A stretch of 6,951 bases of DNA from Deltaproteobacteria bacterium (lineage in GTDB: Bacteria; JAUYMQ01): NCBI GenBank assembly GCA_030698575.1, contig JAUYMQ010000447.1, positions 1 through 6,951 on the forward strand, in the 5' to 3' direction. Shown in pieces: positions 591 through 6,951 of the stretch. A program made the translations under genes and the position numbers. The notes under the pieces are model-generated. The model worked only from the letters and a program-made list of their open reading frames with translations, ran no database searches and was not told where the DNA came from. Numbering within the stretch: the stretch's first letter is position 1; every line of letters begins with the position of its first letter.

Positions 591-749
591 TTTGTCATTG
601 CGCGGGGAGCCTGGGCTCGCATGTCATTGCGAGGAGGGCCGAAGGCCCGACGAAGCAATCCCCCGGGCACCGCCACGAACGGGGGGATTGCTTCGTCGCT
701 GCGCTCCTCGCAATGACATGCGTTCCGATGCATGGGTTCCGATGACATG
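591..749. repeat. Palindromic repeat, copy 1 (core 620-720)
   Basis: This is a long interrupted palindrome between tsaE and lysC. The outer arm CATGTCATTGCGAGGAG (620-636) pairs perfectly with 704-720. The inner arm CGACGAAGCAATCCCCC (648-664) pairs with 682-698. Between the left arms, 636-648 folds on itself (GGGCC-GAA-GGCCC), so a transcript could form a branched hairpin. A degenerate half-repeat starts 29 bases to the left (591), and another ends 29 bases to the right (749). No transposase is present. The sequence type (TGTCATTGCGAGGAG with GAAGCAATCCCC) resembles small non-autonomous palindromic repeats seen in many bacterial genomes; that match is from memory. It fills the 184-base gap before lysC, and I see no gene in it. 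Confidence 0.9.
722..749. repeat. Short tandem repeat upstream of lysC
   Basis: GTTCCGATG-CATG (722-734) and GTTCCGATGACATG (736-749) are two adjacent near-identical units differing by one inserted base. The second unit ends in GATGACATG, which resembles the outer end of the neighbouring palindromic repeat. The pair may therefore be decayed repeat ends that duplicated. It lies just upstream of the lysC ribosome binding site. Confidence 0.7.
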
Positions 750-769
750 CGCTGGAGACGGATAGATAC

Positions 770-2008
770 ATGGCGCTGATAGTCCAGAAATATGGCGGCA
801 CTTCGGTGGGCGACACCGCGCGCATCGCGCGGGTTGCGGATCGTGTCATCCGCACCCGCGAGAGCGGCAACCAGGTGATCGTCGTGGTCTCGGCCATGGC
901 CGGCGAGACCAATCGCCTCACCAAGCTCGCGGCGGATCTCACCGACACGCCCAGCGAGCGCGAGATGGACGTCATCCTTTCGACCGGCGAGCAGGTGACT
1001 ATCGGGCTCCTCTCGATCGCGCTCGACGCGCGGGGGTGCGCTGCACGCTCTTTTACCGGCTCGCAGGTGCGCATCACCACCGATTCGGCCTTTTCGAAGG
1101 CGCGCATCCAGAAGATCGACGACTCAGCCATTCGCCAGGCGCTCGACCGCGGCGAGGTGGTGGTCGTGGCGGGCTTCCAGGGGATCGATGAGGCCGGCAA
1201 CATCACGACGCTCGGCCGGGGGGGATCGGATACCAGCGCCGTAGCCATCGCGGCGGCCCTTGGCGCCGACGTCTGCGAGATTTACACCGACGTCGACGGC
1301 GTCTTCACCAGCGATCCCGGTGTTGTTCCGTCGGCCCGCATGCTCGACAGGGTTTCCTACGACGAAATGCTCGAGATGGCGTCGCTGGGGGCGAAAGTGC
1401 TGCACATCAGGTCGGTGCTCTTCGCCAAGAAGTACAATGTGCCCCTCCACGTCCGATCGAGCTTCAACGACAAGGAAGGCACGCTGGTCACCAGGGAGGA
1501 AGACATCATGGAGGCGCTGGAGGTCACGGGGGTCACCTACAACCGCGACGAGGCGAAGATCACCGTCGTGGGGGTTCCCGATCAGCCCGGAGTGGCGGCG
1601 AAGTTGCTGGGCCCCATCACCGACTGCAACATCATCGTCGACATGATCGTGCAGAACGTAGGGACCGACGGGCACGCGGACGTGACGTTCACGGTGCCCA
1701 AGGCGGACTTCAAGAAGGCGCTTTCCTGCGCCCAGGAAGCGGCGCGCGAACTCCGCGCCCGGGAGGTGCTGTCGGACGACCGGGTCGCCAAGGTATCGAT
1801 CGTCGGCATGGGGATGAAGAACCACGCCGGCGTGGCGTCGCGCATGTTCGAGCTTCTCTCCAAGGAAGGTATCAACATCCAGATCATCAGCACCTCGGAG
1901 ATCAAGATCAGCTGCGTCATCGATGACAAGTACGCCGAGCTGGCGGTGCGCACACTGCACGACGGCTTCGAGCTGGGCAAAGAGCCCGCCGTGGCGGAGA
2001 ACACCTGA
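770..2008 (+). CDS. lysC: Aspartokinase
   Basis: Aspartokinase phosphorylates L-aspartate with ATP, the first step toward lysine, threonine, methionine and isoleucine. The 412-residue product has the length of single-function aspartokinases. It starts with KYGGTSVG (7-14), where Lys7 is the expected catalytic lysine. It has STGEQ (71-75), [12 protein letters not shown] (147-158) and [12 protein letters not shown] (172-183) in the kinase domain. Two ACT domains follow (about 262-330 and 340-405), including [19 protein letters not shown] and the ISTSEIKIS motif; such domains bind lysine and/or threonine for feedback control. The start is the first in-frame ATG, with GGAG at 754-757. The stop TGA shares one base with the cimA ATG (TGATG), so translation is probably coupled. 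A second, internal start at 1508 is described separately. Confidence 0.97.
1495..1510 (+). promoter_or_regulatory. Internal RBS and start for aspartokinase beta subunit
   Basis: Inside lysC, GGAGG (1495-1499) lies 8 bases before ATG 1508-1510, which is in the lysC frame at Met247. Translation from here would give a 166-residue protein consisting of the ACT-domain half (starts [20 protein letters not shown], ends at 2008). In Corynebacterium glutamicum and Bacillus, aspartokinase is an alpha2beta2 enzyme whose beta subunit is made from just such an in-frame internal start. The C. glutamicum beta subunit, as I recall it, begins with a very similar M-E-x-A-x-x-T-G-V motif at the same place. This ribosome binding site is stronger than the one in front of the full-length gene. 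Use of the start in this organism is inferred. Confidence 0.65.
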
Positions 2009-3675
2009 TGGGAACGAAGAAAGCAACACGGAAAGCGCCGCCGAAGGCGGGGAACGCCAAGCCGCCCCCGGCGCGGCGGGAGATATCCATCTACGACGCG
2101 CTGCTGCGCGACGGGACGCAGGGCGAGGAGATCAACTTCTCCGTCGAGGACAAGCTCCGCATCACCGAAAAGCTCGACGAGATGGGGGTCGACTACATCG
2201 AAGGAGGATACCCGGGCTCCAACCCGAAGGATCTTGAGTTCTTCCGCGCGGCCAAGTCGCTTCGGCTAAGCCACGCGAAACTTGTGGCCTTCGGGGCCAC
2301 GCGGCGGAGCGGGACCTCCTGCGAGAAGGACGCCGGTATGCAGGGGCTGCTTCGCGCCGAGACGCCGGTGGCCACCATCTTTGGAAAGTCCTGGGACCTG
2401 CACGTCACCGACGCGCTTCGAATCCCGCTCCAGGAAAACCTGGACATCATTCACGACTCGCTCAGGTGGCTGACCAAGCGCTTCGACCGGGTCATCTACG
2501 ACGCCGAGCACTTTTTCGACGGCTACAAGCGAAACCAGGCTTACGCGCTGAAGAGCCTGACCGCCGCCGTCGAGGCCGGCCCCGACTGGATCGTGCTCTG
2601 CGACACGAACGGGGGCAGCATGCCCCATGAGGTCGCCGAGATCGTCGAAGCCGTGCGCGCGCGGTTCGACGTGCCGCTCGGCATTCATTGCCACAACGAC
2701 TGCGAGCTGGGCGTGGCCAACACCCTGGCGGCGGTCGCGAAGGGGGCCGACCAGGTCCAGGGGACCATCAACGGTTTCGGCGAGAGGTGCGGCAACGCGA
2801 ATCTCACGTCGATCATCCCGAACCTCCAGTTCAAGCTCGGCTTGCGCTGCATCAGCGACGGGCAGATCTCGAAGCTCGTCGAGCTGTCTCACTTCGTCGA
2901 TGAGCTGGCCAACGTGCCGCCCAACAACCGCGCCGCCTTCGTGGGCCGGTCGGCCTTCGCCCACAAGGGCGGGATGCACGTCGACGCCGTGCAGAAGAAC
3001 CCCGAGACCTACGAGCACATTCATCCCGAACTGGTCGGAAACCGGCAGCGAATTCTCGTCTCGGACATGGCCGGCAAGGGCAACGTGCTGGCCAAGGCGC
3101 GCGAGGTCGGCATCGATCTCGAGAGCGGCGATCCTGTGGCCAGGGAGATCCTCGCGCAGGTGAAGCAGCTCGAGCACGAGGGGTACGCCTTCGAGGGCGC
3201 CGATGCGAGTTTCGAAATCCTGCTCCGCAAGTCGATGGGGACCCACAAGAAGTACTTCAGCCTGCACGGGTTCCGCGTGATCGACGAGAAGCGCGACGAG
3301 AACGTAACGCCGATCTCGGAGGCGACGGTGCAGGTGGAGGTGGGCGGGCATCTGGAGCACACCGCGGCAGTCGGCAACGGCCCGGTGAACGCACTCGACA
3401 ACGCCCTTCGGAAGGCGCTGGAGAATTTCTATCCATCGCTCATGAAGATGGAGCTGCTGGACTACAAGGTGCGCGTGCTCGCCTCCGGCCACGGCACGGG
3501 GGCCCGCGTGCGCGTGCTTATCGAGTCCGGCGATCACAGCTCGCGCTGGGGCACGGTGGGCGTCTCGGAGAACATCATCGAGGCGAGCTGGCGCGCCCTG
3601 GTCGACAGCGTCGAGTTCAAGCTCATGAAAGATGAGCGGGCCGCGCGCGCGTCGAAGCGAAAGCCTCGCAGCTAA
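2008..3675 (+). CDS. cimA: (R)-citramalate synthase
   Basis: Citramalate synthase condenses pyruvate with acetyl-CoA, opening a threonine-independent route to 2-oxobutyrate and isoleucine. The 555-residue protein has a DRE-TIM metallolyase barrel with RDGTQGE (34-40; Arg34 and Asp35 expected catalytic/metal), [13 protein letters not shown] (63-75), HCHND (227-231, metal-binding HxH) and GFGERCGN (256-263). A C-terminal LeuA-type allosteric dimerisation domain lies at about 430-545. Its length and the [12 protein letters not shown] block match the Geobacter-type CimA subfamily rather than 2-isopropylmalate or homocitrate synthase. Residues 1-23 are a basic Lys/Ala/Pro-rich extension. The ATG overlaps the lysC stop by one base, and GGAGA at 1995-1999 serves as ribosome binding site. 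Substrate choice is inferred from family resemblance. Confidence 0.92.
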
Positions 3676-3776: not shown

Positions 3777-4424
3777 ATGTTCTCGCGCGTCGACAGGCGC
3801 CTGGCGGCCGGGCTCCTCGTCCTCGGGGCCGCCTGGACGGGCGCCGTTCTCGATCATTTCGAGCGCCGCCGGGCCGAGAGCGGCCCTGCGGGGTGGGAAG
3901 CGCCGCGGTCCTACGCGGGCGCCGTCGAGATTGCCGGCGCCGTCTCCCGGCCCGGCGTGCGGCCGGGGCTGGCCGGACGCACGCTTCGAGAAGCCCTCGC
4001 GCTGGCCGGGCCGCTCCGTTCTCTCCGGGGTCCGGACCTGGATCGGCCGCTGGAGGAGGGAGCGCGCGTCGTCCTCCATCCCGACGGGCGCGTGCGCGCG
4101 GGGCGGATGCCCGGGCGGCGGCTCCTCGCGCTTGGCCTGCCTATCCCGCTCGAGTTCGCGACCGCTGCCGACCTCGTGGCGCTCCCCGGCGTGGGGCCGG
4201 CCATTGCGGCACGCATCATCGCCCACCGGGACGCGGGCGCTCCCCTGAAGCGCATCGCCGATCTGGACGCCGTCCCCGGAATCGGCCCCAAGACGCTGGC
4301 TCGCATTCGCCCCCACCTCACGCTGCAACCCGCATGTCATAGCAAGGAGCGTGGTTTCGCATGTCATTGCGAGGAGGGGCGGGAGGCCCCGACGAAGCAA
4401 TCCCCCCCGCCATCGCGCCCTTGA
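3777..4424 (+). CDS. ComEA-like SLBB/helix-hairpin-helix protein
   Basis: This 215-residue protein looks like the DNA-uptake receptor ComEA. It has a short basic N-terminus, one hydrophobic segment (about 8-25) that probably anchors it in the inner membrane, and an SLBB-like region (about 49-103, with VEIAGAVSRPGV and LREALALAG). Two helix-hairpin-helix motifs then follow (about 129-182, with LPGVGPAIAARI and VPGIGPKTLARI), which bind DNA non-specifically. The ATG at 3777 is chosen because GGAGGGG (3765-3771) precedes it; an upstream ATG at 3705 would place the start inside the terminator. From about residue 186 the protein is translated from palindromic repeat sequence (CHCEE, TKQSP), so this tail is probably not functional, and the original stop may have been lost. 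No other competence gene is in the window, so a role in DNA uptake is only suggested. Confidence 0.78.
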   Translation: MFSRVDRRLAAGLLVLGAAWTGAVLDHFERRRAESGPAGWEAPRSYAGAVEIAGAVSRPGVRPGLAGRTLREALALAGPLRSLRGPDLDRPLEEGARVVLHPDGRVRAGRMPGRRLLALGLPIPLEFATAADLVALPGVGPAIAARIIAHRDAGAPLKRIADLDAVPGIGPKTLARIRPHLTLQPACHSKERGFACHCEEGREAPTKQSPPPSRP

Positions 4425-4491
4425 TGCGAACGGCGCCGAGCGCACGGGGGATTGCTTCGGCGCCCCTGAGGGGGCGCCTCGCAATGACATG
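4333..4491. repeat. Palindromic repeat, copy 2 (core 4360-4491)
   Basis: The core has the same outer end as copy 1, with CATGTCATTGCGAGG from 4360 pairing with the end at 4477-4491. It also has the same inner arm: CGAAGCAATCCCCC on the left and GGGGGATTGCTTCG at 4446-4459 on the right. The side hairpins differ in sequence but are kept: 4376-4390 (GGGGC with GCCCC) on the left and a perfect 8-bp stem at 4459-4478 on the right (GGCGCCCC, loop TGAG, GGGGCGCC). A degenerate half-repeat starts 27 bases upstream at 4333 (CATGTCATAGCAAGGA). After the core, GCGCTGGAAACG resembles the GCGCTGGAGACG that follows copy 1 (749-760). The left part overlaps the 3' end of the ComEA-like gene. Confidence 0.9.
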
Positions 4492-4571
4492 CGCTGGAAA
4501 CGCCCCCGCGTATCCCAGGTATCCAGGAAGGACCCGGAGCCTTCTCCGCCGCGGCATCGAGCAGGAACATG

Positions 4572-6880: not shown

Positions 6881-6890
6881 CGGCCACCCC

Positions 6891-6951
6891 GCATGTCATC
6901 GTGAGGCACGCTGGCGCCGCATGTCATTGCGAGGAGGGCCGCCCCGCATGT
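6891..6951. repeat. Palindromic repeat, copy 3 (partial array, runs off window)
   Basis: After iscS, three successive GCATGT starts occur at 6891, 6919 and 6946. The first unit is degenerate (GCATGTCATCGTGAGGCA). The second matches copies 1 and 2 (CATGTCATTGCGAGGAGGGC from 6920). It then runs into a third GCATGT instead of continuing to the inner GAAGCAATCCCC arm. The right half is not in the window, so a complete palindrome cannot be confirmed. No terminator for iscS is seen before it. Confidence 0.75.

Follow-up and report, generated by a model that had tools for sequence, protein, structure and literature searches.

Lysine, threonine and methionine synthesis all begin with aspartokinase. 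In 1987 Chen, Hu and Paulus reportedly described overlapping genes for aspartokinase II of Bacillus subtilis, an early case of an alpha and a beta subunit made from one gene. The aspartokinases of Corynebacterium glutamicum, Thermus thermophilus and Pseudomonas aeruginosa (CgAK, TtAK and PaAK) are alpha2beta2 enzymes encoded by in-frame overlapping genes (PMC8690038). In Campylobacter jejuni an internal initiation peak in lysC, detected by retapamulin Ribo-seq, gives rise to a LysC beta isoform; the same study cites the 1987 B. subtilis precedent (PMC11955535). In an ordinary annotation such a gene appears only as its full-length protein, and the separate beta is missing. We have analyzed a lysC gene in a window of 6,951 nucleotides (the whole stretch of DNA under study) and compared it with homologues from across the bacteria. 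In our preferred reading, to which we assign a probability of about 90%, this lysC would encode an alpha subunit and, in the same frame, an ACT-only beta subunit via an internal start, the two forming an alpha2beta2 aspartokinase. The gene adds a lineage without earlier data to the alpha2beta2 aspartokinases already known.

The lysC ORF lies on the plus strand at 770..2008, and its product of 412 aa is a full-length aspartokinase (the alpha subunit), with an AA_kinase domain followed by ACT domains. It scores 641 bits against the NCBIfam profile NF005155 (aspartate kinase; cut-off 346) and above the cut-off of TIGR00656 (monofunctional class); its match to NF005656 is below the cut-off of that profile. 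In Pfam, AA_kinase covers residues 3-230 and the ACT domains follow from residue 265. Length, profile and Pfam matches identify a monofunctional aspartokinase with C-terminal ACT domains and without a fused partner; at 412 aa and with one ACT pair, it is not of the tandem four-ACT type (3L76, ~600 aa). Rfam gave zero matches in the window at the gathering threshold, and thus there is no annotated riboswitch upstream of lysC. A citramalate synthase gene, cimA (2008-3675; TIGR00977, 768 bits), overlaps lysC in TGATG, its first base being the A of the lysC stop codon, so that the two genes look translationally coupled. The segment 5208-6880 contains a gene for an Rrf2-family regulator (IscR-like) and then one for a class-V aminotransferase (IscS-like). 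A dispersed palindromic repeat with the core TGTCATTGCGAGGAG ... GACGAAGCAATCCCCC is found at three intergenic sites of the window (609-731, 4326-4502 and 6885-6942), with one copy immediately before lysC. Across the genome there are 124 occurrences of the core 15-mer (68 forward, 56 reverse) and 0 of its reversed control.

Between the AA_kinase domain and the first ACT domain, the plus strand carries the elements of a second translation start. GGAGG (CCAGGGAGGAAGACATCATGGAG), the putative ribosome-binding site, occupies 1495..1499 within the codons Arg242-Glu243-Glu244 and is followed, after a spacer of 8 bases (1500-1507), by an ATG at 1508..1510. This ATG is in frame, since (1508-770)/3 = 246, and is codon 247 of 412; Met247 of lysC would be Met1 of beta. 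The next codon, that of E248 (1511..1513), is GAG. The predicted beta, or regulatory, subunit (1508..2008) has 166 aa, beginning MEALEVTGV, contains only ACT domains (Pfam ACT_9, ACT_7 and ACT) and ends with lysC at 2008. The full-length start is preceded, 11 bases before ATG 770, by a weak Shine-Dalgarno (SD)-like GGAGA at 754..758, whose duplex energy with the anti-SD UCACCUCCUUA is -6.4 kcal/mol, versus -11.1 kcal/mol for the internal site. A search of the window's MAG for a 16S gene, which would give the host's own anti-SD, found none. The coordinates, spacing, product and relative strength of the two sites all agree with the first-pass annotation, which had reported a GGAGG 8 bases before an in-frame ATG at the kinase/ACT junction, a product of 166 residues and a ribosome-binding site better than that of full-length lysC. 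It had also claimed that the product begins where the C. glutamicum beta begins, and this is borne out by the solved structures. The nearest of these is the P. aeruginosa aspartokinase 5YEI (E 2e-154; phmmer of the full-length query against its beta chain 5yei_D, E 1.6e-55), and Met247 aligns with residue 1 of the beta chains 5yei_D (P. aeruginosa) and 2dtj (C. glutamicum).

Within this single gene the internal SD is not beyond chance, and its significance comes from relatives. When the upstream codons were resampled synonymously according to the gene's own usage, an energy at least as strong was obtained about 60% of the time; the result is non-significant because GAG is the usual Glu codon of lysC (20/26). 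The GTG at codon 133 likewise has an SD-like match of -11.3, equal in strength to the internal site. Both observations would suit an explanation in which R-E-E-D-I-M is conserved for the sake of the protein, and GGAGG and ATG arise incidentally, because the gene is GC-rich and the linker acidic. The codon choices of the relatives, described below, make this very unlikely.

We collected 231 single-ORF lysC homologues, that of the window included: 80 are named loci of a GTDB genome scan, and the other ~150 come from a sample of genomes that spans bacterial families. We left out two tandem four-ACT genes (L240 and L264), with the result unchanged and 229 genes remaining; a thinned set of 108 genes shares less than 70% identity. 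The genome collection held no relatives of the window's genome from its own phylum, and the comparisons are thus all deep, across phyla (best identity 67%). An in-frame ATG or GTG is present at the Met247 column, or one codon upstream in L223, in 221/229 genes, five of them with GTG. GGAGG stands exactly 8 bases before the ATG in 48 genes of the thinned set. The SD is not universal, since 15 thinned genes bear the ATG without GGAGG, GAGG, AGGA or GGAG upstream, and several relatives retain the ATG but have GAA in place of GAG. The internal SD is stronger than the upstream one in 69/102 thinned genes, which would accord with a need for ample beta. Eight genes have no start near the Met247 column, and most of these have a weak SD (-0.7 to -5.4, mean -2.6). 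In these genes (L181, L182, L187, L202, L204, L245, L261 and L025) the internal start has apparently been lost; an in-frame ATG some codons upstream in L187, L204, L245 and L261 might replace it.

Resampling each gene synonymously, with the codons that it uses itself, provides a test that is independent of the protein sequence. Across the 108 thinned genes the SD energy at the junction averages -9.24, versus -6.08 after resampling (p 2e-11); as a control, 1,225 other in-frame internal ATGs of the same genes showed no deviation. The signal can be traced to individual codons by asking, at each of the 40 alignment columns with at least 25 Glu, whether GAG is more or less frequent than the gene's overall Glu codon usage predicts. 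At E243, whose GAG lies inside the GGAGG core, GAG is over-represented (73/91 versus 45.9 expected, z +6.2). At E248, the second codon of beta, it is under-represented and GAA is preferred (z -6.6), so that the GAG of the window is the minority choice among relatives. None of the remaining columns lies beyond |z| 2.7, and the bias holds at 65, 60 and 55% thinning and in both halves of the sample. The first-pass annotation had named synonymous loss of GGAGG or ATG among relatives as the observation that would count against an internal start; at both elements the relatives mostly keep the signal. The two signs are opposite, which would fit a ribosome-binding site followed by a G-poor early codon, and G-poor early codons are usual at ordinary translation starts. 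In genes that otherwise prefer GAA, E243 is GAG in 26/32 versus 9.1 expected; the E248 bias is weak there (z -1.1), as these genes use GAA for most Glu anyway. A linker conserved only for its amino acids does not account for the two strongest biases among 40 Glu columns, with opposite signs, nor for an E243 bias that is strongest where GAA is preferred, and for the family as a whole the codon bias at E243 and E248 refutes that explanation. As judged from codon choice, the internal SD and start are kept across relatives by selection beyond what the protein requires.

The mRNA at the junction is also less folded than its synonymous versions, by +1.56 kcal/mol (p 4e-7), whereas the control ATGs are slightly more folded (-0.70). 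This bears on a further explanation of the internal SD, as a pause site: ribosomes would stall at the linker between the kinase and the ACT domains, the kinase domain would fold first, and no separate protein would be made. SD-like pausing is a debated idea. The SD does lie at a domain boundary in all of the fused genes, as such a role would have it, but pausing does not call for a start codon 8 bases further on or for the five genes in which GTG takes the place of ATG, and it has no need of GAA as the second codon or of weaker mRNA folding around the site. The solved beta chains, too, begin at the residue aligned with Met247. The tandem four-ACT aspartokinases weigh against pausing as well, for they have the same kinase/ACT boundary, yet both signals are lost. 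At the first junction of these enzymes (L268, L269, L270/L298 and L297; four genomes of at least three lineages) there is neither a start codon nor an SD: the Met position is Ala, Gly, Phe or Leu, and the SD energy is -0.1 to -4.6. We regard a pause site as highly improbable. In this sample, the start and SD have gone from enzymes that would have no use for a separate beta.

Under the preferred reading, ribosomes starting at 770 would make the kinase-plus-ACT alpha subunit, while others on the same mRNA would bind GGAGG at 1495-1499 and produce the ACT-only beta from ATG 1508. Alpha and beta would then assemble into alpha2beta2, in which paired ACT domains would bind the feedback inhibitors. 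The conserved start and its codon signature lead us to infer strongly that ribosomes initiate at 1508 in the organism of the window; alpha2beta2 assembly and feedback control of its enzyme are to be expected by analogy with relatives. Beta might instead come from a short transcript of its own that begins within lysC, and not from the full mRNA. We find this improbable: a consensus scan, the only search made, found no sigma-70-like promoter in 1200-1520, and such a transcript would still use the start site at 1508. The first-pass annotation had suggested an alpha2beta2 aspartokinase "in this lineage". The reading itself is supported, but its scope was too narrow, as many bacterial families with this type of enzyme carry the signal. 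Its further proposal, that translation sets the alpha:beta ratio, is a conjecture. The conservation at codon level suggests that, across a large part of the bacterial tree, aspartokinases of this type normally have a regulatory subunit that is made separately.

In one phylum the gene has been divided at the same point. Among the 17 genomes of the phylum of G027, all 13 with a readable alpha locus (G027, G060-G064, G066 and G068-G073; loci L115-L127, L131-L142 and L111) have lysC physically split at the site of the internal start. The split alpha stops near residue 241-248 (with EGTIIE-stop or a similar end), some 241 codons from the start of homology, and the split beta is ~165-190 aa long. 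In G027 alpha contains only AA_kinase and beta only ACT domains. Two arrangements are seen. In one, beta comes a few bases at most after alpha, and a TTG that may be its start overlaps the alpha stop, with GGAGG ~9 bases before this TTG; in the other, beta follows a short spacer and has its own SD and ATG (L115, L116 and L117; the spacer is ~190 bases in L118). Ile or Leu has replaced the former Met in the loci whose beta seems to have its own start further upstream (L115, L116 and, probably, L123). Its recurrence in 13 genomes from several families speaks against the split being a product of sequencing errors. Three other loci (L112, L113 and L114) were considered as split genes and rejected, being single longer ORFs of other aspartokinase types. 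A search of one literature library for a bacterial split aspartokinase found no papers. We think it probable that beta is an independently selected protein across bacteria, and that one phylum has split lysC into genes for a kinase-only alpha and an ACT-only beta. If so, the split-gene kinase, which has no ACT domain of its own, would be regulated entirely in trans. Two natural experiments bear on the purpose of beta: in the split-gene phylum it has its own gene, and in the four-ACT enzymes it is fused in line and the internal start is gone.

The lysC of the window can thus be placed among the described systems. The Synechocystis enzyme (3L76 type) has the same kinase and regulatory modules, but it carries the second regulatory module as an in-line fusion, and the examined examples of this type have no start codon or SD at the first junction. 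C. jejuni lysC also has an internal start and belongs to a different phylum. In C. glutamicum LysC (3AAW, 2DTJ), which is more distant in sequence, beta is likewise an ACT-only subunit, with its first residue in the Met247 column; alpha has Val there, and the beta start is therefore presumably GTG, unlike the ATG of the window. The P. aeruginosa enzyme (5YEI) shares with the window lysC a separate beta chain that starts at the residue aligned with Met247, and differs from it in a linker that is two residues longer in the alpha alignment.
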